A stretch of 64,000 nucleotides of DNA from assembly GCF_020164555.1 (NCBI RefSeq), contig NZ_JAIQZB010000004.1, forward strand, positions 62,001-126,000, given 5' to 3'. The DNA is from Salegentibacter lacus (GTDB lineage Bacteria; Bacteroidota; Bacteroidia; Flavobacteriales; Flavobacteriaceae). A program made the translations under genes and the position numbers. Of the stretch, positions 33,943-42,711 are shown piece by piece. The notes below the pieces were generated by a model, which was not told the origin of the DNA, made no database searches, and was given only the letters and a program-made list of their open reading frames with translations. The first letter of the stretch is position 1, and the number at the start of each line of letters is the position of its first letter.

Positions 33943-35175
33943 GTGGCTTTAAAATTTTTTAAAGAAAACGAGCAAATTTTCAATACTTTATTCGAAGCGG
34001 CTTCAGAAGGAGTTATCGTAGTAGATAGCCAGCAAATAATAGTTACAGCCAATAGGGCTGCATTAATCATGTTTGGTTACGAAAAGGAAGAACTTTTAGA
34101 CGAGCATCTAAATATTCTAATTCCTATACGATACAAAGCCAATCACCATGAGCATTTCGATAGGTTTATGGAGTACAGTGAGAAACGACAAATGGGCCAC
34201 GGCAGAGATTTGTTTGGTGTTAAAAAAGACGGAACACAATTTCCGGTAGAAGCAGGTTTAAATCCTTTTAAAGTAGATGGGGAGCGTTTTGTAATGTCTT
34301 TAATTGTTGACATTACAGTTAGAAAAGAAAATCAGCAGCGCATTAGAGAGCTCAATGCCGAGCTGGAAGATAAAATTAAAATACGAACCCGCGAACTTAG
34401 ACATACGGTAGATAACCTTGAAAAGGAAATTACAAAGCGAAAAGAAGCCGAAAAACGTATTAAACTCGCACTAAAACAGGAAAAAGAACTTAACGAGTTA
34501 AAAACAAAATTTCTCTCCCTGGTTTCCCACGAATTCAAAACTCCGTTAAGTGGGATTCTTACCTCGGCAACTTTAGCCGAAAAATATACCCAAGCCGAAC
34601 AGCAAGAAAAAAGAACAAAACACCTTACCACTATAAAAAATAAGGTGCATTATTTAAATAATATTTTAAATGATTTTCTATCCTTAGAACGTTTGGAATC
34701 GGGGAATGTAAATTACAAATACACAGCTTTTAGTCTTAATAAGATGGTAAACGAAGTGATTTACAATGCTAATGTTACTTTAAAATATGGGCAGGAGATA
34801 GAATATGATAGTGAGCTGGAAGATATCACCCTGTATCAGGATGAAAAAATTCTGGAACTTATTCTTTCCAATTTAATAGGAAATTCTATTAAATATTCAC
34901 CAGAAGATTCAACGATCTATTTCCGAATATTTCCTACTGAAGAAAAAATTATCTTTGAAGTTGAAGATGAAGGAATGGGAATTCCTCAGAAAGATCAAAA
35001 GCATATTTTTGAGCGCTATTTTAGGGCTGAAAATGCTTTACTGAACCAGGGAACTGGCATAGGTCTAAATATAGTTAAAGTTCATCTTGAAAATATGGGA
35101 GGTAAAATCAAATTTGAAAGTGTAGAAAATAAAGGCACTAAATTTACCGTAACATTACCTAACCAAAATAGATAA
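33943..35175 (+). CDS. PAS-domain sensor histidine kinase
   Basis: A 410-residue soluble kinase without membrane segments. The PAS domain (about 8-128) carries HGRDLFGVKKDGTQFPVEAGLNPF; a coiled coil (about 130-188) leads to HisKA with His196 (SLVSHEFKTPLSG) and a HATPase domain (NLIGNSIKYS, DEGMGI, GTGIGLNIVK). The PAS fold could bind haem, flavin or a small molecule; no Cys/His pattern decides which. The start is GTG 33943. The receiver-CRP hybrid gene follows 40 bp later and is almost certainly its phosphorylation partner. Confidence 0.9.
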   Translation: MALKFFKENEQIFNTLFEAASEGVIVVDSQQIIVTANRAALIMFGYEKEELLDEHLNILIPIRYKANHHEHFDRFMEYSEKRQMGHGRDLFGVKKDGTQFPVEAGLNPFKVDGERFVMSLIVDITVRKENQQRIRELNAELEDKIKIRTRELRHTVDNLEKEITKRKEAEKRIKLALKQEKELNELKTKFLSLVSHEFKTPLSGILTSATLAEKYTQAEQQEKRTKHLTTIKNKVHYLNNILNDFLSLERLESGNVNYKYTAFSLNKMVNEVIYNANVTLKYGQEIEYDSELEDITLYQDEKILELILSNLIGNSIKYSPEDSTIYFRIFPTEEKIIFEVEDEGMGIPQKDQKHIFERYFRAENALLNQGTGIGLNIVKVHLENMGGKIKFESVENKGTKFTVTLPNQNR

Positions 35176-35215: not shown

Positions 35216-36244
35216 ATGAAGAAAATACTTTTAATTGAAGACGATGTAACCGTTAGGGAGAATACCGCAGAATTACTGGAACTCTCAAATTATGAAGTAG
35301 TAACCGCACCCAATGGAAAAAAAGGTGTAGATAAAGCAAAAGAAGAATCGCCCGATATAATTGTGTGCGATATCATGATGCCAGAGCTTGATGGCTACGA
35401 TGTGCTCACCCGCCTTTCGGAAGATCCTAAAACCAAAGGAATTCCTTTTATTTTCCTTTCGGCAAAAACCGAGCATAAAGATGTAAGAAGGGGGATGGAT
35501 CTTGGTGCAGACGATTATTTAACCAAACCTTTTGAAGAAGAAGACCTCTTGAGTGCTATTGAGAGCAGGCTAGCGAAAGTAGAGATTTTACAAGCGCAAA
35601 AAGATGAGGGTGGGGAAACCGTTCAAAATCTGTCTGCTTTTCGCGAGATGATGAGAAACCGGGAAAAATTTGGTTATAAAGCCGGTGAAAATATTTATGA
35701 GGAAGGAAAATCTTCCCTGCATTTTTATATGGTAGAGCGCGGGGTGGTGAAAGCTCATAAATATGATAGTCGTGGCAAAGAAATGATTACCGAACTTTAT
35801 AAAGAAGGCGATTTCTTTGGAAATCTTAGCTTTAATAAAAATTCAGCTTACGGTGAATATACCACGGCTTTAGAAGAAAGTGTACTTTACATAGTTTCTA
35901 AAGACGATTTAAGGGAAATACTGAAAAATAACAGTAATATTAGCATGGAGTTGCTTCAGGAAATGGGTGATCATTTAATGGGTGTTAAAGAACAACTTAT
36001 GGAAATTGCTTACGCTTCGGTGAGAAGAAAAACCGCGCGTACCATTCTACTTTTTGCACATAAAATAAAGAAAAACCCATTACACAGTATTAGAATTTCC
36101 CGGGCAGATCTTGCTGGTGTAGCTGGTATAGCTTCAGAAACATTAATAAGAACCCTTTCAGATTTTAAAAAAGAAGGACTTATAGAAATTGAAGGTAGAA
36201 ATGTAAAGCTCTTGGACGCTGAAAAGTTAGAGGCAATTAGTTAA
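35216..36244 (+). CDS. Hybrid response regulator: receiver plus CRP/FNR-type DNA-binding module
   Basis: A 342-residue transcription factor. The receiver (about 1-122) has Asp9-Asp10, phospho-acceptor Asp52 (VCDIMMPELDG) and Lys104. A linker leads to a cyclic-nucleotide-binding-like beta-roll (about 150-235), a dimer helix (about 240-275) and a winged helix (about 292-335). The recognition helix ASETLIRTLSDF keeps Glu308 and Arg312, equivalent to Glu181/Arg185 of E. coli CRP, which read TGA half-sites. The phosphate-binding Arg-Ser of the cAMP pocket is missing (GNLSFNKNSAYGEYTTA), so phosphorylation rather than cAMP is the likely input. Probable targets are the three TGA-N6-TCA sites at 36-43 kb. 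Confidence 0.9.
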   Translation: MKKILLIEDDVTVRENTAELLELSNYEVVTAPNGKKGVDKAKEESPDIIVCDIMMPELDGYDVLTRLSEDPKTKGIPFIFLSAKTEHKDVRRGMDLGADDYLTKPFEEEDLLSAIESRLAKVEILQAQKDEGGETVQNLSAFREMMRNREKFGYKAGENIYEEGKSSLHFYMVERGVVKAHKYDSRGKEMITELYKEGDFFGNLSFNKNSAYGEYTTALEESVLYIVSKDDLREILKNNSNISMELLQEMGDHLMGVKEQLMEIAYASVRRKTARTILLFAHKIKKNPLHSIRISRADLAGVAGIASETLIRTLSDFKKEGLIEIEGRNVKLLDAEKLEAIS

Positions 36245-36256
36245 TTTTTACAGAAC

Positions 36257-36299
36257 TGACCGGAGTCATATTTAGGATTGATCTTTCACATTATTTTTG
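36257..36299 (+). promoter_or_regulatory. CRP/FNR-like site plus -7 element (universal stress gene)
   Basis: TGAC-CGGA-GTCA (36257-36268, centre 36262.5) precedes TATTTTTG (36292-36299), a full TAnnTTTG match, and the universal stress gene starts at 36329. Centre-to-element distance is 29.5 bp, the same as in the two sites at 38.7 and 42.7 kb. Confidence 0.6.
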
Positions 36300-36328
36300 G
36301 CCAAAATTAGTGCTGAAAGGTCAAGCCT

Positions 36329-37075
36329 ATGAATATTTTAATACTAACAGATTTTTCTCCTCAGGCTTATAATGCTGCTCGTTACGCCTTGAATTCAGCT
36401 TCAGGCTTATCCCAATTTTATGTACTTAACGCTTCTTCTACCGGGGAAGCCACGCAGATAGATGAGGCGCTTTTAGAGTTTGTAGCTAAGCTTAAAAAAG
36501 AGCCGGCAGCAAACGAGCATTCATTTTCTACCCTTCCATTTGCCGATAATCTAATAAACGCGACCCGCAAGGTGGTGACCGAAAAAAAGATAAACTTAAT
36601 TGTTATGGGGGCATCGGGAAAAAACACTTCTAATTTTCAGGGTCTGGGTGGCAATACCTGTAATGTGGTGAAAAAAGTAAAATGCCCGGTACTGGTAGTG
36701 CCTAATTGTGATTTCAAGCAATGGGAAAGACTATATCTTCCATTAGATCTTCGTTTTCCAGTACATACTGAGGCTTTACAATTATTGCAAAAATTACCCG
36801 TTTCAAAGGATGTAACTTTAGATGTGTGGGAATTTAATTTGAATAATGCTGAGTCACAAATAGAAGATTTTAGATTGCCCAATTATAAAATTTTCCGTAA
36901 AACCCTAAAAAGAGAGTCAGATTTTCTGGAAAAATTCTGGCCAGAAGCAAATACAAAAGCCAATATTATTGTGTTTTTTGCAAGACAACTTCATATTACG
37001 GAGAAGCTTTTAAACAGGCTTTCGGCTACCGAAACCAGGAACCAAAACCTCCCGGTTCTTATACTACACGGTTAA
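36329..37075 (+). CDS. Universal stress protein family protein
   Basis: A 248-residue cytosolic protein. The first domain (about 1-128) has the UspA opening MNILILTDFSPQAYNAARYAL and the nucleotide-binding-like LIVMGASGKN-x-GGNTCNVVKKVKCPVLVVP; the usual G-2x-G-9x-G(S/T) motif is only partly kept. The second half is divergent with no recognisable binding motif. It directly follows the hybrid regulator and has its own CRP-like promoter, so it is probably induced by that regulator under stress or low oxygen. Confidence 0.82.
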   Translation: MNILILTDFSPQAYNAARYALNSASGLSQFYVLNASSTGEATQIDEALLEFVAKLKKEPAANEHSFSTLPFADNLINATRKVVTEKKINLIVMGASGKNTSNFQGLGGNTCNVVKKVKCPVLVVPNCDFKQWERLYLPLDLRFPVHTEALQLLQKLPVSKDVTLDVWEFNLNNAESQIEDFRLPNYKIFRKTLKRESDFLEKFWPEANTKANIIVFFARQLHITEKLLNRLSATETRNQNLPVLILHG

Positions 37076-37211
37076 ACTTCTAAAATTAGGTTAAAGTTTG
37101 CGGCTAAGCTATTAAAATTAGTCCCTTAGCCTCCTGCTATGTTGCTAAATATAGCAGAAATCCTTATGTTTATGCTTCTTTCAAAAGAAGATATCTGAAA
37201 GATTTTATTGG

Positions 37212-37290
37212 CGTCAAGCTGAATTTGTTTCAGCTTCTAACATGTTTTGAATAATAACAACTTAGATTCTGAAATAAATTTAGAATGACG
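37212..37290. repeat. Dispersed CTGAA/TTCAG inverted-repeat element
   Basis: Bounded by CGTCA and TGACG, with AGCTGAATTTGTTTCAGCT and ATTCTGAAATAAATTTAGAAT inside. It has nearly the same length and layout as the copy at 15167-15245. Confidence 0.7.
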
Positions 37291-37358
37291 ATTTCAATTT
37301 GTTTTCAAACAGTCTTCTTTTTTTATAAAGGGTATAATAAATTTTTAAAAAATAAATT

Positions 37359-37925
37359 ATGAATAAAGACGAAGTATTAAATAGACTTAAAGAAGGTAAC
37401 GGGCGTTTTACCGCCGATAAAAAAGAAGGAAATTTACAGGATAAATCTCGCAGAGAAGAGTTAACTAAAGGGCAGGCGCCTTACGCAATCGTTCTTAGCT
37501 GTGCCGATAGCCGTGTAGTACCGGAGCTTGCTTTTGATACTGGTCTGGGTGAATTATTTACCGTGCGTGTAGCCGGAAATATTGCTAATAGTTCTTCTAT
37601 TGCCAGTATGGAATATGCTGTTGCCAATCTTGGAACCGAAATTATTGTAGTAATGGGTCACGAAAGTTGTGGTGCTGTTACTGCCGCAATGAGTGGGGGA
37701 GACAATGGTTACAACTTAAACCATCTGGTTTCTCATATTGCTCCTGCAATAGCAGCTTCAGGTAAAGATGCACCGGTTAATGATGTAGTGAAGAAAAACG
37801 CACAATTAACCGCTGAAGAGCTTAAAACACGTTCTACGATTATAAAAGAGGCGGCCGATAGCGGGAAAGTGAAAATCGTATCAGCTTATTATAATTTAGA
37901 TTCAGGCAAAGTAGATTTTCTATAG
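37359..37925 (+). CDS. Beta-class carbonic anhydrase
   Basis: A 188-residue zinc enzyme interconverting CO2 and bicarbonate. Zinc ligands are Cys48, His101 and Cys104, with the Asp50-Arg52 dyad in SCADSRVVPE and HESCGAV. No signal peptide, so it is cytosolic. It sits between the universal stress gene and the truncated haemoglobin operon but has no CRP-like site of its own, and is preceded by a dispersed repeat. Confidence 0.93.
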   Translation: MNKDEVLNRLKEGNGRFTADKKEGNLQDKSRREELTKGQAPYAIVLSCADSRVVPELAFDTGLGELFTVRVAGNIANSSSIASMEYAVANLGTEIIVVMGHESCGAVTAAMSGGDNGYNLNHLVSHIAPAIAASGKDAPVNDVVKKNAQLTAEELKTRSTIIKEAADSGKVKIVSAYYNLDSGKVDFL

Positions 37926-37939
37926 ATAGATAATAATTT

Positions 37940-37977
37940 AAAAAGCCCCATGAGCAAATGCTTTTGGGGCTTTTTTT
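37940..37977. terminator. Bidirectional terminator
   Basis: AAAAGCCCCA pairs with TGGGGCTTTT and is flanked by A and T runs, between carbonic anhydrase (rightward) and truncated haemoglobin (leftward). The right arm's T run extends to the haemoglobin stop codon. Confidence 0.8.
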
Positions 37978-38368
37978 ATACGTGGTTTTCACGAGACTGA
38001 AACATCTTTAAATATAAATGTGAAGACATCTTTCGGGCATTATTTTTCGCGCGGTTAGCAAGTTCACCTTCATATAATTCGTCTATAGTTTCAAACCATA
38101 AGTTTAGCCAGATTCCAAAATGATAATTGGAAATCTCCTGGTTGTTTTCCTGGTCTACCTTCACGTGAACCTTTTGCGGATTCCCTTTGTAGATCGCTTT
38201 AAAAAAGAGGTTACTTTCCCAGAAATCGGTTAATTTCTCGAGATGGGCATCCCAGTCTTTTATCACCTCATTGAAAAAATGACCAATTTCAGGATTCTGC
38301 CTTACTTTTTTATAAAATCCGGAAACCAGTAGAAAAATATCTTCCCGGGTTTTAATATCATTTTTCAT
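37976..38368 (-). CDS. Group III truncated haemoglobin
   Basis: A 130-residue 2-on-2 globin. The proximal haem ligand is His83 in SNYHFGIWLNLWFETID, and the helix-B/E region LVSGFYKKVRQNPEIGHFFNEVI is typical of group III (trHbP). Such proteins bind O2 or NO and are often induced by low oxygen or nitrosative stress. It lies 9 bp after the small membrane-protein gene, so it is expressed from that gene's promoter, which carries a perfect CRP-like palindrome. Confidence 0.88.
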   Translation of the reverse strand: MKNDIKTREDIFLLVSGFYKKVRQNPEIGHFFNEVIKDWDAHLEKLTDFWESNLFFKAIYKGNPQKVHVKVDQENNQEISNYHFGIWLNLWFETIDELYEGELANRAKNNARKMSSHLYLKMFQSRENHV

Positions 38369-38377
38369 AAAAATAAT

Positions 38378-38659
38378 TTAGAAAATATTTATAAGAATAA
38401 AGATAGACGATATTGCAAGGCTTAGCAAAAGCGTATTAAATACTATTTTTGATTTAAACTGCGCCAAAATTACGGTATTGAATCCCATACAAACAACCAC
38501 AACAATAAAAAGTTGAAGCATATCTATAAAAGTATGCCCGTTCATTAAAATTAGCATTGCTGCCACAGATCCTAAACAACTGGATGCAATAATACCAATT
38601 GCAGAATATCCTAAACTCATTTCTTCAAAATCGGCTAGCAAAGTCTTGTAAAGTTTCAT
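38378..38659 (-). CDS. Small three-helix membrane protein upstream of haemoglobin
   Basis: A 93-residue protein with three hydrophobic segments (about 18-40, 46-66 and 74-93) and a short charged N-terminus (MKLYKTLLADFEEMS). The family was not recognised. The 9-bp spacing to the truncated haemoglobin gene and the shared CRP-like promoter suggest a joint function, perhaps placing the globin or its electron donor at the membrane; this is inference. Confidence 0.72.
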   Translation of the reverse strand: MKLYKTLLADFEEMSLGYSAIGIIASSCLGSVAAMLILMNGHTFIDMLQLFIVVVVCMGFNTVILAQFKSKIVFNTLLLSLAISSIFILINIF

Positions 38660-38682
38660 AATTTTTAATTTTAAATGTGGGG

Positions 38683-38729
38683 TAAAATTAAGGTTGGAGC
38701 AATGGAAATCTTATGAGCATAATCATAAG
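38683..38729 (-). promoter_or_regulatory. CRP/FNR-like palindrome plus -7-like element (haemoglobin operon)
   Basis: The perfect palindrome CTTATGA-N6-TCATAAG (38710-38729, centre 38719.5) is followed on the minus strand by TAATTTTA (38690-38683), seven of eight bases matching TAnnTTTG conventions. Centre-to-element distance is 29.5 bp. The gene starts at 38659. Confidence 0.6.
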
Positions 38730-38737
38730 TATAAAAA

Positions 38738-38772
38738 AAGCCTGGAGAAAATTAAGTTTCTCCAGGCTTTGA
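38738..38772 (-). terminator. Terminator of the CoA-transferase operon
   Basis: AAAGCCTGGAGAAA and TTTCTCCAGGCTTT form a perfect 14-bp stem with a 6-nt loop and a T run on the minus strand, just past the CoA-transferase stop codon. Confidence 0.85.
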
Positions 38773-38790
38773 AAATCATTATAAGTAATT

Positions 38791-40065
38791 CTACCTAAAT
38801 TGATTATGAGATTCTCTCTCCAATTGCTCCCTATGATCTGGATGCGCTATAGAGATAAGTTCTTTTGCTCTTTGTTTCAGGTTTTTTCCGTAGAGATTTA
38901 CTACGCCATATTCTGTAGCAATGTAATGTACGTGCGCCCTGGTTGTGGTTACTCCGGCACCTTCTTTTAGAAAAGGCACAATTTTGGAAATCCCGTTTTT
39001 AGTGATTGAGGGCATAGCAATAATGGGTTTTCCACCTTCAGATAGCGCTGCGCCTCTTATAAAATCCATTTGCCCGCCAACTCCAGAAAATTGATATTTC
39101 CCAATAGTATCGGCACAAACCTGGCCGGTAAGATCTATTTCTATAGCCGAGTTTATAGCGGTTACCTTTGGGTTTTGCCTAATTATGGCCGTATCGTTTG
39201 TATAGGCTGCTTCTTTAAAATGCACAATGGGATTATCGTCTATAAAATCATATAGATCGGGCGAACCTATGGCAAAACAAGTCACCAGTTTTCCGGTTTT
39301 TATTTCCTTATTTGCTCCGGTAATCACTCCCGATTTTACCAGGGGAAGAATTCCGTCAGAAAACATTTCAGTATGAATTCCAAGGTTTTTATGATTTTGC
39401 AGATTATTTAAAACCACGTTGGGGATACCGCCGATTCCCATTTGTAGGGTAGCGCCATCTTCAATTAATTCGGCTACGTGTTTGCCAATTTGCTTTTCAA
39501 TTTCGGTAGGAGCAGTAAAGCTGGTAGCAAAAATAGGTTGATTCACTTCTATGGCGGCATCAATCTGGCTGCTGTGAATAATCCCGTCGCCGTGGGTTCT
39601 GGGTACATTCGGATTTATTTGTGCGATTACTTTTTTAGCCTTTTGAATAGCGGGTAATGTAATATCTACCGAAACGCCCAGCGAACAATAGCCGTGTTTA
39701 TCTGGTGGGGAAACCTGTATAAAAGCAACATCTAAAGGCAAAATATCCCTTCGGAAAAGATTATGAATTTCACTTAGAAAAATTGGAATATAAGTTCCTT
39801 TGTTGGAGTTGACCGCATTTCTAACATTTCCGGCGACAAAACACGTGTTTATGCTGAAAGAATCGGCATAAGGTTCTTCGGTATATTTTGCTTTTCCTTC
39901 GGTGTGAATTTGTATTATTTCAACATCAGATAATTCATTATAGCGATCGCATAATGCATCAATTAAGGTAACCGGGGTCATTGCGGCACCCTGAATAAAA
40001 ATGCGATTACCAGAATTTACTATAGCAACTGCTTCTTGTGCGGATAATATCTTTGGATTTTTCAC
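38791..40065 (-). CDS. Acetyl-CoA hydrolase/CoA-transferase (4-hydroxybutyrate CoA-transferase type)
   Basis: A 424-residue class I CoA-transferase. It contains VSPPDKHGYCSLGVSVD (about 118-134), MGIGGIPNVVL (209-219), LGIHTEMFSDG (228-238; its Glu is the likely thioester-forming residue) and GVGGQMDFIRGAALSEGGKPIIA near the C-terminus. It moves CoA between acetate and another short acid, or hydrolyses acetyl-CoA, which suits fermentative or low-oxygen metabolism. It follows a YceI-like gene by 3 bp, in one operon, and ends at a strong terminator. Confidence 0.88.
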   Translation of the reverse strand: MKNPKILSAQEAVAIVNSGNRIFIQGAAMTPVTLIDALCDRYNELSDVEIIQIHTEGKAKYTEEPYADSFSINTCFVAGNVRNAVNSNKGTYIPIFLSEIHNLFRRDILPLDVAFIQVSPPDKHGYCSLGVSVDITLPAIQKAKKVIAQINPNVPRTHGDGIIHSSQIDAAIEVNQPIFATSFTAPTEIEKQIGKHVAELIEDGATLQMGIGGIPNVVLNNLQNHKNLGIHTEMFSDGILPLVKSGVITGANKEIKTGKLVTCFAIGSPDLYDFIDDNPIVHFKEAAYTNDTAIIRQNPKVTAINSAIEIDLTGQVCADTIGKYQFSGVGGQMDFIRGAALSEGGKPIIAMPSITKNGISKIVPFLKEGAGVTTTRAHVHYIATEYGVVNLYGKNLKQRAKELISIAHPDHREQLERESHNQFR

Positions 40066-40068
40066 AAT

Positions 40069-40647
40069 TTAAGTTTTAATATTCAGATCAAAATTGATCT
40101 CAATTTCTTCATCTATGACAATTAAGCCAAAAATTTTGCTAGGTGCTTGTAGATTAAAATCCTTGATGTTTAGTTCTAATTTTCCTACAAAACGAATTTC
40201 GTTTTTCCAGGTGATTTCAATTGGAAAGCGGTAATCGTTTTCAATTCCTGCAATGGTAAAACTTAAAGTTACTGTGGCATCTTCTTCCTGGTGGAGATCT
40301 ATTTTTTTTATTTTCAAAAAAATCTCCGGGTATTTTTCAGTTTTAAGTAGGTCGTGAAAATCTTTATTGATTTTTCTGTGTCCGCAGTCAAAATTTTTAT
40401 TTTCTAGGGTAAGTATACTGTTTTTGAATATTAGGGCGCGTTCTTTATCAATGTAGTGAACCTTAAAGCTTTCGTTTTTGAAGTAAAGCGGATTAAAATT
40501 ACATTCAAATTCATTTATGTTTGTAGTACCAGTAATACTTAGGCTACTGTTGGGCAGGATGACAATTTCGCGGGTCTCTAAACTAGTTTGTGTCAGGCCC
40601 GAAAAACTAAGAAATATCGTGAAGAAAAAAAGAAAATAAGTTCTCAT
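40069..40647 (-). CDS. YceI-like lipocalin-fold exported protein
   Basis: A 192-residue periplasmic protein. A signal peptide (about 1-19, FSGLTQ) is followed by SSLSITGTTNINEFECNF, KTEKYPEIFLKIKKIDL and VTLSFTIAGI, the strands of the YceI fold that binds polyisoprenoid-type ligands in characterised members. It is more divergent than the second YceI gene at 42.1 kb. Stop and start of the CoA-transferase gene are 3 bp apart, so they are co-transcribed. Confidence 0.75.
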   Translation of the reverse strand: MRTYFLFFFTIFLSFSGLTQTSLETREIVILPNSSLSITGTTNINEFECNFNPLYFKNESFKVHYIDKERALIFKNSILTLENKNFDCGHRKINKDFHDLLKTEKYPEIFLKIKKIDLHQEEDATVTLSFTIAGIENDYRFPIEITWKNEIRFVGKLELNIKDFNLQAPSKIFGLIVIDEEIEINFDLNIKT

Positions 40648-40710
40648 CCTGATTAAATTTAGGGCTTTCTAATAAATATATGCAATCATTTTTTATTGAA
40701 AACAGGAAAT

Positions 40711-40752
40711 AAAAAAGCCCCGGTGAATCTCTTAGAGATAGCATCCGGGGCT
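40711..40752 (-). terminator. Terminator of the YceI-porin operon
   Basis: AGCCCCGG (40716-40723) pairs with CCGGGGCT (40745-40752), with a T run on the minus strand, just past the porin gene. Confidence 0.8.
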
Positions 40753-40763
40753 CAACATTCAAC

Positions 40764-42032
40764 TTAAAAACTAATTACTGCTTCAATGTTGAATCCGTTA
40801 AACTGAGCATCGTCATAAACAGTTCCGGCAGGATAGTCGTTATACTGCTGGTTTACATACTCAACTTTTGCGAGAACGTTTTTGGTCAAGAACCATCCAC
40901 CACCTACGTTGAAACGGTTAACTGAAACATCATCATTGCTTGCAGTGTTGTATCGAGTACCTACGTAAAAGTCTTCGCCCTGACCAAAACGGTAGATAAG
41001 CTCACCTGCATACTGATTCCAATCATCATTTTCAGTTGATGCATTTTCATAGATTCCAAAGAACTCAAGTCCACCAAATTTTATGAATGGGTTGATCATG
41101 AAAGAAGTAAGTTCTGCTCCAGTGGCAGGGTTAATTCTACCAGCTCTGAAATCACCTTCTATTACATTGTAGTATCTTGTTCCTGCACGGTCACCACTGT
41201 AAAGGTATTGTGTAGATCCTCTTGAACCAATAGGTCTGAATCCAGAGTGAAATACAGATCCTGTTAATCTAAATCTGAAATCTTCGTTTATTTGCTTATC
41301 GTAACCAATCTTTGCAAGGTATGAAGGATCTCTATCAGTTTCCAGAGAACTTTGATTAATAGTACTGTTGGTAAAACCTGCCATTGCTAACCATGGACCG
41401 TTCATGTAGTAAACCTCTGCACCAACTTCAGTAGTAAAGGCATCCATTAAATAATTACCTACAAATGGGTTATAAAGAGCCATCGCGTTGTCAGATCTTC
41501 TAAAGTGAGCATCACCATAGTTGTTTTCCATGTGACCAATTTTCACTCTCCAATTATCCATATAACCTGCTAGATCTTCACTGATCCACTCAAGACCATC
41601 TATTTGAATATACCCACCTTTTACATATGCTTCATTGTGGTGTAAAGAAGAAAGATATGTTCTCAAGTGCATTCTCAATCCCGGAGCTAAAAGAACATCG
41701 AGATCAAGGTTTGCGGTAGCAAGGTTAAAGTTAGTTCCCAGTTCAGCAAGATCGTCGTTCTCCCCTGAAGAATTTTCCTGGCGTAGACCTTGTAATTGAA
41801 TGGTAGAAGCACCACCTATTCTTACCTGAACTCCGTCAAAATCATAATCTGTGTCTTTTGTTGGTTCGAACTCGGTAAGACCACGCTGGTCTGGAGCTCT
41901 AAAGTTAGGAAGATCTCTGTCCCATATAGTTTTGTTCTCTACATCCACATCTACGTCTACGTCTTGTGCCTGTGCCTGAAAGCCTGCGGCCATCATTAAA
42001 GCAATTCCGAAATATTTGATTGAATTTTTCAT
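40764..42032 (-). CDS. Porin-like outer-membrane beta-barrel
   Basis: A 422-residue exported protein. A signal peptide (about 1-22, FQAQAQ) is followed by a striking alternating Asp-Val run (DVDVDVDVE) and then a beta-barrel with repeated aromatic-ended strands, ending VISF with a terminal Phe. The pattern resembles trimeric OprP/OprO-like or alginate-type porins, but the solute is not identifiable. It lies 24 bp after a YceI gene, in one operon driven by a CRP-like promoter. Confidence 0.78.
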   Translation of the reverse strand: MKNSIKYFGIALMMAAGFQAQAQDVDVDVDVENKTIWDRDLPNFRAPDQRGLTEFEPTKDTDYDFDGVQVRIGGASTIQLQGLRQENSSGENDDLAELGTNFNLATANLDLDVLLAPGLRMHLRTYLSSLHHNEAYVKGGYIQIDGLEWISEDLAGYMDNWRVKIGHMENNYGDAHFRRSDNAMALYNPFVGNYLMDAFTTEVGAEVYYMNGPWLAMAGFTNSTINQSSLETDRDPSYLAKIGYDKQINEDFRFRLTGSVFHSGFRPIGSRGSTQYLYSGDRAGTRYYNVIEGDFRAGRINPATGAELTSFMINPFIKFGGLEFFGIYENASTENDDWNQYAGELIYRFGQGEDFYVGTRYNTASNDDVSVNRFNVGGGWFLTKNVLAKVEYVNQQYNDYPAGTVYDDAQFNGFNIEAVISF

Positions 42033-42056
42033 TGTAATAATTTTTAAATTGAATAG

Positions 42057-42644
42057 TTATTTAGAAAATGTTGATTTGAATTTAATAGTTAGGTCTTCTC
42101 CTGTGGTAATTGTTCCAAACATAGCAGTTGGAGGGTCTACTTTGTAATGAGTCATATTGATTTTTTGTTCACCATTAATTTGTAATTTATTTCCATTAAG
42201 TTTTACTGTAAATGCTACGGGGACTTGTTTAGAAACTCCTGAAATTTTTAAAGTTGCAAGACCGTTCACTTTATAGGAGTCGCTTCCCTGAGCTTCAATC
42301 TTTTTAACTTCGTCCAGTTTAAATTCTATATTTTTATATTCGCTAGTGTTAAGCGCTTTATAAGCATTTTTGTCCATTCCACCTTTTCCGCTATCTAAGC
42401 TTTCAGCAGGAACGGTAACCTGTAAGCTGGAAATTCCTGTGAGCTTCCCCTCTTCGGTAGTGATTGTGGCGCCTCCTTTTTTAGAGTTTGCCTTCATTTC
42501 CCAATCGTGGATATTAGAAGTTCCTTCAACAATAATTTCTGAAGAATTATCCATTCTAAAGTTTTGACCGATCATGCTGCCTGCGGTTAGCAACATAAAG
42601 AATACGCCTGTAAGAATTACTTGATATGATTTTAAAACTTTCAT
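42057..42644 (-). CDS. YceI family protein
   Basis: A 195-residue periplasmic lipocalin-fold protein. A signal peptide (about 1-26) is followed by NSSEIIVEGTSNIHDWEMKAN, the family's opening motif, ITGISSLQVTVPAESLDSG-like strands, NTSEYKNIEFKLDEVKKIE and ISGVSKQVPVAFTVKLNG. Family members bind polyisoprenoids such as quinone-like lipids and are often stress-induced. It is the first gene of the YceI-porin unit and has a TGA-N6-TCA operator about 60 bp upstream. Confidence 0.9.
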   Translation of the reverse strand: MKVLKSYQVILTGVFFMLLTAGSMIGQNFRMDNSSEIIVEGTSNIHDWEMKANSKKGGATITTEEGKLTGISSLQVTVPAESLDSGKGGMDKNAYKALNTSEYKNIEFKLDEVKKIEAQGSDSYKVNGLATLKISGVSKQVPVAFTVKLNGNKLQINGEQKINMTHYKVDPPTAMFGTITTGEDLTIKFKSTFSK

Positions 42645-42668
42645 GATATTAGGTTTTTAAGTTTGGTA

Positions 42669-42711
42669 CAAAGTTGGGGTAGAAATAGAGCAGAATCTAT
42701 GACGAGTATCA
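42669..42711 (-). promoter_or_regulatory. CRP/FNR-like site plus -7-like element (YceI-porin operon)
   Basis: TGAC-GAGT-ATCA (42700-42711, centre 42705.5) is followed on the minus strand by CAACTTTG (42676-42669), one mismatch to TAnnTTTG. Centre-to-element distance is 29.5 bp, identical to the sites at 36.3 and 38.7 kb. The gene starts at 42644. Confidence 0.55.

Follow-up and report, generated by a model that had tools for sequence, protein, structure and literature searches.

Three palindromes at one locus of the flavobacterium Salegentibacter lacus raise the question of whether they are operators of a single regulon and, if so, which protein reads them and in answer to what signal. They lie in a window of 64,000 nucleotides (contig NZ_JAIQZB010000004.1, positions 62,001 to 126,000). 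The original prediction for this window held that all three are CRP/FNR-like sites with a TGA-N6-TCA core at one fixed distance from a -7-like element, that they serve a coherent stress regulon, and that a receiver-CRP hybrid encoded beside them is the candidate regulator.

Operator geometry and its conservation

The predicted positions of all three sites and of the -7 elements hold to the nucleotide (Table 1), with exactly 29.5 bp between the centre of the palindrome and the first base of the element in each case, and they are the only occurrences of TGA-N6-TCA in the 37 upstream regions of the window (5926 bp). A site with [TC]A..TTT[GA] at 29.5 was seen three times in these regions, against a mean of 0.0045 and a maximum of 1 in 2000 first-order Markov resamples; because the full pattern was defined from the same three sites, independent data weigh more than this count. 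Over the whole window, coding DNA included, TGA-N6-TCA occurs 25 times against 16.7 expected, and as this enrichment is mild, the signal is one of position and spacing. Relative to TAnnTTTG, two of these -7 elements carry a single-base deviation each, and the deviations are kept in orthologues, with C as first base in 13/13 YceI promoters and A as last base in 25/29 promoters of the small membrane protein (MP) gene. Passages of a report on mapped flavobacterial promoters (F. psychrophilum; PMC9723704) place the sigma-A element TAnnTTTG at -12 to -5, and this, taken with the 29.5 bp spacing, would put the site centres at -41.5, where they had been predicted to lie.

Table 1. Genes, operators and -7 elements of the locus, in window coordinates.
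Feature	Position	Strand	Remarks
PAS histidine kinase, FixL/DosP-like PAS, putative haem-proximal His68	33943..35175	+	Pfam PAS, HisKA, HATPase_c
Receiver-CRP hybrid	35216..36244	+	Pfam Response_reg 8.3e-31, cNMP_binding 4e-17, HTH_Crp_2 3.6e-13
Operator 1 (TGACCGGAGTCA)	36257..36268	+	5' of USP gene
-7 element TATTTTTG of USP promoter	36292..36299	+	first base 29.5 from operator 1 centre
Universal stress protein (USP)	36329..37075	+	Pfam Usp 6e-13
Group III truncated haemoglobin, second gene of MP operon	37976..38368	-	phmmer to 2ig3 at 5.3e-12; without Pfam family
Small membrane protein (MP), first gene of MP-haemoglobin operon	38378..38659	-	ORF; without Pfam or NCBIfam family
-7 element TAATTTTA of MP promoter	38683..38690	-	
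Operator 2, CTTATGA-N6-TCATAAG, core 38714-38725	38710..38729	-	MP orthologue footprint 29/29
Porin-like outer-membrane protein	40764..42032	-	ORF; without Pfam or NCBIfam family; 'porin' is the name used in the original prediction
YceI protein	42057..42644	-	Pfam YceI 2.2e-14
-7 element CAACTTTG of YceI promoter	42669..42676	-	first base C in 13/13 orthologue promoters
Operator 3 (TGATACTCGTCA on - strand)	42700..42711	-	YceI orthologue footprint 13/13

For each of the three target genes the spacing is kept 5' of the orthologues, and it is missing from eight neighbouring genes. The footprint with exact 29.5 spacing precedes 29/29 MP orthologues (an MP relative is present in 29 of 80 related loci), 13/13 YceI orthologues and 59/70 USP orthologues, and the USP upstream regions contain TGA-N6-TCA in 70 of 70 cases. 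It was found in 0 of 224 upstream regions of orthologues of the neighbours: the histidine kinase (0/77), the hybrid (0/79), CA (0/5), the haemoglobin (0/15), AcCoA hydrolase (0/16), a second YceI (0/13), FtsX (0/6) and the porin-like gene (0/13), which probably belongs to the YceI operon, where it follows YceI after a 24-bp gap. Upstream regions of the 80 related loci contain 450 occurrences of TGA-N6-TCA, against 32 to 68 for each of nine other spacings (N2-N5, N7-N11), and 251 of these N6 sites have a loose -7 element exactly at 29.5, with at most 12 at any other distance. Markov resamples, spacing controls and orthologue footprints thus all bear out the view that equal spacing would hardly arise by chance.

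The kinase and the receiver-CRP hybrid

The hybrid belongs to the CRP/FNR superfamily, with Pfam scores above cut-off for cNMP_binding (62.4 bits) and HTH_Crp_2 (49.7 bits), and its receiver is intact (Response_reg, 106.9 bits), with D9, D10 and D52 in 80/80 aligned rows and one row gapped. The E..xxR residues of the CRP/FNR recognition helix contact TGA, and the hybrid carries them as E308 and R312 in 81/81 rows. It has no Fe-S cysteine set, its one cysteine lying in the receiver; after residue 120, cysteines are absent from 65 of 80 orthologues, and none of the 80 has more than two there. Its output is of the CRP type, not LuxR (NCBIfam FixJ 69 bits, cut-off 255), and its CRP part is fused to a receiver, not stand-alone (FixK 63.5 bits, cut-off 300). 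In a fold search with the AlphaFold model of the hybrid (pLDDT 79), the receiver matches RpaA and the CRP part matches CRP, FNR and FixK2, separately, with an rmsd of 15-18 in the CRP rows that amounts to poor superposition.

The kinase gene is present in 78/80 loci, in all 78 directly 5' of the hybrid and on the same strand, and its product probably drives the hybrid. The best matches of its PAS domain in the PDB are the oxygen sensors FixL (6.5e-17) and DosP, and the putative haem histidine, H68, is found in 78/78 aligned rows; the position that matches FixL's distal arginine varies, with R88 in 73/79. Such a His-containing PAS stretch could be common to non-haem PAS domains, and the kinase scores 103 bits against NCBIfam FixL, whose cut-off is 850. 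The kinase model (pLDDT 75.5) is of low quality at the loop with the PAS His and is therefore given no weight in the haem reading. That the kinase operon regulates itself was considered and rejected: TGA-N6-TCA lies 5' of 36/77 kinase genes, but in none of them is the 29.5 geometry directed towards the kinase, and of 44 palindromes 5' of kinase genes, 21 have that geometry towards the opposite strand.

Site number and regulators across Flavobacteriaceae

Across 199 Flavobacteriaceae genomes the pattern at 29.5 occurs at 1657 sites, against 173 for the reversed pattern and 311 for a 27.5 spacing. A family search in which 10 candidates per genome were scored found the hybrid or a close relative in at least 86 of the 199. 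A recheck with the CRP part, scoring all candidates in 40 of the genomes called hybrid-free (the other 73 lay outside it), found no missed hybrids, since its matches all lie in open frames of at most 263 aa, which are too short. Where the hybrid is missing, the same sites are accompanied by an FNR-like protein with four conserved cysteines at 4, 7, 53 and 106, a spacing that differs from that of E. coli FNR. Both regulators are present in 48 genomes, the hybrid only in 38, the FNR-like protein only in 68, and neither in 45.

When the set is limited to genomes of 2.5 Mb or more with a completeness of 90% or more, which are related by descent and whose means are uncorrected for the tree, the mean number of sites is 1.91 with neither regulator (n=11; 27.5 control 2.36), a background level, 7.98 with the FNR-like protein only (n=52; control 1.60), 9.72 with the hybrid only (n=36; control 1.36) and 14.04 with both (n=47; control 1.70). 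Site counts therefore track the presence of the hybrid, as expected of the predicted regulator, but it is not the sole regulator that goes with the operators: the count in hybrid-free genomes can be as high as 17 sites, and each of the 24 such genomes with at least 8 sites, under the same limits of completeness and size, has an FNR-like N-terminus. The exceptions are two hybrid-only genomes (G098 with 2 sites and G190 with 3), 9 of the 68 FNR-only genomes, with at most 3 sites, and, among the 45 with neither, G048 (10 sites; 82% complete), G147 (9 sites; 73%) and G138 (7 sites, reversed control 4; 99%).

Over the 199 genomes, mutual exclusion of the two regulators was unsupported (Fisher p 0.56); the subset of 146 genomes that are larger and more complete shows a negative association (47 with both, 36 hybrid only, 52 FNR only, 11 neither; p 0.001). 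By hand count, 11 of the 48 genomes with both have them no more than 7 kb apart. Extension of the link between operator and regulator beyond Flavobacteriaceae is weak, 20 genomes with the hybrid from other families of the class averaging 5.0 exact sites and 11 without it 3.1.

The genome of the window encodes two more CRP-type proteins that share the E..xxR helix with the hybrid: a second hybrid, whose receiver has decayed (G000:C34:2730-3743) and which lies amid five operator-like sites, and a stand-alone CRP (G000:C107:149523-150119), encoded some 1.6 kb from the gene for ScdA, a gene that has an operator-like site of its own. To judge from their sequences both could bind the sites as well. 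A reading in which the sites are genuine class II CRP/FNR operators but are worked here mainly by C34 or C107, with a minor part for the hybrid of the window, nevertheless seems unlikely to us. As a query in the 199 genomes, the C34 protein finds itself at 100% and all else at 28-45% identity, with no close copy seen elsewhere, whereas the canonical hybrid is widespread; this query finds hybrids in general, so that no separate C34 distribution can be drawn from it. Furthermore, the three conserved targets of the window adjoin the canonical hybrid, and hybrid-only genomes are rich in sites.

Targets, signal and likeness to known systems

In the genome of the window, genes with sites include those for CcoNO, a CcoI-type ATPase, ScdA, USPs, Hsp20 and HPF; the same sites are found at genes for a HemN-like radical SAM protein, cytochrome c, YceI and OsmC. 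The coherent regulon that was predicted holds, in that the target set shares operator and geometry, but it is better named low-oxygen/dormancy than general stress, because cbb3 oxidase and cytochrome c belong to it. Passages of PMC9723704 report that cbb3 oxidase and haem synthesis go up under oxygen limitation in the mapped flavobacterium; the main text of that paper, taken by itself, holds no word beginning 'FNR', 'Crp' or 'palindrom'. From the titles, abstract starts and some passages of the papers that turned up in an open-licence library, we recognised none as describing a Flavobacteriaceae regulator that acts on cbb3 oxidase or USPs. A Flavobacteriales CRP/FNR homologue is, in passages of PMC8510549, predicted to be MalR-like and carbon-sensing.

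The hybrid might also bind the sites in answer to a signal other than oxygen, with redox, NO or some other ligand sensed by the PAS domain, or a small molecule bound by the CRP-fold domain, and so govern a general stress or growth-arrest regulon. USPs, Hsp20, HPF and OsmC are indeed dormancy or stress genes, the cNMP-type domain of the hybrid is intact by Pfam, and haem binding by the kinase is putative. We consider this improbable, since the same sites stand on the genes for CcoNO, the HemN-like protein, the CcoI-type ATPase and cytochrome c, the PAS domain is best matched by oxygen sensors, and the regulator that can take the place of the hybrid resembles FNR and has four cysteines. Chance, base composition or terminator hairpins as the source of the equal spacing we discount almost entirely: TGA-N6-TCA is frequent across the genome, with 1278 occurrences to 712 of the reversed pattern, and operator 2 adjoins a terminator-like hairpin (by eye), but the half-site and -7 spacing controls, the resamples and the footprints refute chance and composition.

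We conclude, with good confidence, that a condensed FixL-FixJ-FixK pathway activates low-oxygen genes from -41.5 and is interchangeable, within the family, with an FNR-like protein. At low oxygen the soluble PAS kinase, as a putative haem-based oxygen sensor, would phosphorylate the receiver of the hybrid, whose CRP part, as a dimer, would then bind CTGAY-N4-RTCAT centred at -41.5 and activate, rather than repress, sigma-A transcription from the -7 element, like class II CRP/FNR activators; FixJ and FixK would thus be condensed into one polypeptide. In many relatives a stand-alone four-cysteine FNR-like protein would serve the same operators, instead or in addition.

We incline, with distinctly less assurance, to a broader reading whose four parts are taken together. 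Flavobacteriaceae would have one low-oxygen operator class and two interchangeable sensors, the condensed FixL/receiver-CRP (haem, phosphorelay) and an Fe-S four-cysteine FNR of new spacing; lineages would hold one sensor, the other, both or none, with the regulon present, save for a few exceptions, where there is at least one; the receiver-CRP fusion would render the effector phosphorylation-gated; and the C34 copy, having lost its receiver sites, would be on the way to becoming a constitutive or ligand-only regulator. The low-oxygen response of a major marine and freshwater family would thereby gain an operator and a promoter geometry in concrete form, a list of targets and candidate sensors, and genomes with either, both or neither regulator offer a natural experiment in which the sensor is swapped and the operators kept.

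The Fe-S-based FNR and ANR regulons of Proteobacteria share with this system the TGA-N6-TCA core, the predicted -41.5 position and targets of cbb3, hemN and USP type, ANR being a regulator of USP targets; they differ from it in that the hybrid of the window is without the Fe-S cysteine set. The FixL-FixJ-FixK system of Alphaproteobacteria, described in passages of PMC4999443 as a haem-PAS kinase, a receiver and a CRP/FNR effector without Fe-S cluster acting on cco oxidase and hemN, has its likeness here in a PAS kinase (haem-PAS-like), a receiver, a CRP/FNR-type effector without Fe-S cluster and cco/hemN-type targets. Unlike that system, receiver and CRP effector are here in one protein, the LuxR-type FixJ output is absent, the targets include USP, HPF, YceI and a truncated globin, and the promoters follow the Bacteroidetes -7 pattern, with the same element as is given for flavobacterial sigma-A promoters in passages of PMC9723704. 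In Caulobacterales, according to a proposal in the same passages of PMC4999443, FnrN was replaced by FixLJ-FixK on pre-existing sites. There as here, two oxygen regulators of differing sensing chemistry would share one operator class and the regulon would outlive the swap; the present case differs in its family, Flavobacteriaceae, in its fused effector, and in the coexistence of both regulators in 48 of 199 genomes.

Operator geometry in the window and around the hybrid

The original prediction described three TGA-N6-TCA operators, each centred 29.5 bp upstream of a -7 element, and re-reading of the window confirmed their positions and spacing. They are the only TGA-N6-TCA sites upstream of genes in the window, where the full pattern (TGA-N6-TCA with the -7 element TAnnTTTG, or a looser form, at 29.5 bp) was observed three times in upstream regions against 0.0045 expected. 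The truncated haemoglobin was assigned by a phmmer match to 2ig3 (5.3e-12). The source is Salegentibacter-like, the receiver-CRP hybrid being 74-95% identical in six Salegentibacter records.

Operators and associated features in the window and elsewhere in its genome (G000)
Feature	Position	Strand	Target or remark
PAS histidine kinase gene	33943..35175	+	
Receiver-CRP hybrid gene	35216..36244	+	
Operator 1	36257-36268		Universal stress protein (USP) gene, directly behind hybrid
Operator 2	38710-38729		Small membrane protein gene (38378..38659, -) and group III truncated haemoglobin
-7 element of membrane protein promoter	38683-38690		
Operator 3	42700-42711		YceI gene (42057..42644, -), then porin-like protein behind YceI
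-7 element of YceI promoter	42669-42676		
Nitrous oxide reductase gene	L160:9005-12261 (G000:C107)		Pfam nos_propeller
Second receiver-CRP gene	L156:2730-3743 (G000:C34)		Receiver decayed

Conservation was assessed at the best 80 of at least 571 confirmed hybrid orthologues, with orthologue footprints taken from the best tblastn match per locus and rows with less than 150 bp upstream excluded. The upstream regions of these 80 loci contain 450 TGA-N6-TCA sites, compared with 32-68 for each of nine other half-site spacings; the loose -7 element lies at 29.5 bp in 251 cases and at any other distance in at most 12, and 78 loci have at least one site with this geometry. Upstream of target-gene orthologues the predicted spacing is kept: the full pattern precedes 29/29 relatives of the membrane protein gene, 13/13 of YceI and 59/70 of USP (all 70 of which have TGA-N6-TCA), and at the same loci it is absent upstream of eight other neighbouring genes (0/224; 77+79+5+15+16+13+13+6). 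Identity falls to 45% among the membrane protein relatives and 41% among those of YceI, and the promoter sequence around the site differs. The consensus is roughly an A-rich stretch, CTGAY-N4-RTCAT, a T-rich stretch and then the -7 element, with C preceding TGA in 163 of 247 sites.

The first base of the -7 element is a non-consensus C in 13/13 YceI and 0/59 USP promoters, and its last base is A, not G, in 25/29 membrane protein and 6/59 USP promoters; these kept bases perhaps reflect a built-in need for an activator. A TGA-N6-TCA palindrome also stands at a fixed place 48 bp before the kinase gene (L039, L042, L044, L047 and other loci); its 29.5 bp geometry is directed away from the kinase in 11 of 12, and it presumably serves a divergent gene.

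The putative kinase-hybrid switch and its likely targets

The kinase is found in 78 of the best 80 loci, on the same strand as the hybrid and directly before it in all 78. Its PAS domain matches FixL (6.5e-17) and DosP in a PDB search, and its His68, present in 78/78 aligned rows from these loci amid variable neighbouring residues, aligns with what we take to be the haem-proximal His of FixL. R82 is kept in 78/78 rows and R88, aligned with the presumed distal Arg of FixL, in 73/79. In the hybrid both the receiver and the CRP-type HTH are intact, and there is no cysteine set. In Flavobacterium psychrophilum, one study (PMC9723704) places TAnnTTTG between -12 and -5; by analogy the operator centres would lie at -41.5, the class II position. 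The same study describes cbb3 oxidase as strongly up-regulated under oxygen limitation, along with haem synthesis enzymes.

The exact pattern with TAnnTTTG occurs eight times in the window's own genome, once within a gene (L168), and the reversed control not at all. Allowing at most one mismatch gives 74 sites against 34 for the reversed control, so that about half of this list is chance. Pfam-checked genes behind sites encode a fused CcoN-CcoO cbb3 oxidase, a CcoI-type P-ATPase, ScdA, Hsp20, USPs, a Na+/H+ antiporter, cytochrome c, HPF, OsmC, pyridoxamine oxidase and MlaE; for the HemN-like gene Pfam gives radical SAM alone, and "HemN" is our label. Operator-like sites precede cytochrome c-type genes in front of the nitrous oxide reductase gene, and the regulon may thus reach into denitrification. 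In the second receiver-CRP protein Pfam did not find Response_reg, and the phospho-Asp region does not align; its gene stands among five operator-like sites, each no more than 3 kb away.

Two candidate regulators and one operator in Flavobacteriaceae

Among 199 Flavobacteriaceae genomes from 198 genera, the hybrid is present in 86 (E <= 1e-60) and the N-terminus of the FNR-like protein, a stand-alone four-cysteine CRP/FNR-type protein, in 116 (60-residue query, E <= 1e-5). Mean site number is 1.76 with neither regulator (n=45; pattern 2 bp shorter, 1.53), 7.91 with the FNR-like protein alone (n=68; 1.59), 9.63 with the hybrid alone (n=38; 1.34) and 14.04 with both (n=48; 1.73), the means being taken without tree-based correction over genomes related by descent. 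Judged against the shorter control, the exact-spacing operator therefore stays at background level in genomes that lack the two regulators and is enriched in those with either one. Site enrichment follows the presence of either regulator, with some exceptions.

The search for stand-alone relatives covered 24 genomes with many sites, 16 with few and two hybrid genomes, and 28 such proteins, from 28 genomes, were read whole (L191-L218). Cysteines occupy the C4, C7, C53 and C106 positions in 27; L213, from a genome with one site (G010), has none of them. Four cysteines would match in number the ligands of a 4Fe-4S cluster, and such a cluster is predicted from these residues. Their spacing (4, 7, 53, 106) differs from what we take to be that of E. 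coli FNR. Additional cysteines occur at 29 and 59 in 20/28 and 21/28. Among the 48 genomes with both, 11 have the FNR-like gene no more than 7 kb from the hybrid (hand count).

Targets were compared at 21 FNR-only sites (13/15 of G017, 7/10 of G044, 1/12 of G107) and 21 hybrid-only sites (8/11 of G101, 6/11 of G130, 7/10 of G143), a hand-picked, non-random sample with some weak-looking sites omitted. Named by eye, by resemblance to proteins already Pfam-checked, HemN-like (2 FNR-only/2 hybrid-only), CcoN (2/2) and cytochrome c lipoprotein (1/2) genes are common to both sets, whereas USP (0 vs 3), HPF (0 vs 1), YceI (0 vs 2) and MlaE (0 vs 2) appear in the hybrid set only. This suggests a respiratory core common to both regulators and a dormancy part specific to the hybrid.

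Range and precedent

The hybrid occurs in 37 of 247 Bacteroidota genomes, all of the window's own class. In other families of that class sites are weakly linked to the hybrid (mean exact sites 5.0 with, n=20, vs 3.1 without, n=11), and outside the class the exact pattern mostly numbers 0-3 per genome (maximum 7); we therefore restrict the claim to Flavobacteriaceae.

The individual parts are of known kinds. We recognised no comparable regulator replacement for Bacteroidetes in our searches of open-licence literature; for Alphaproteobacteria, PMC4999443 proposes that FixLJ-FixK replaced FnrN on pre-existing sites. As far as we have searched, what is new in Flavobacteriaceae is a fused effector that is probably interchangeable with an FNR-like protein while the operator geometry stays fixed.
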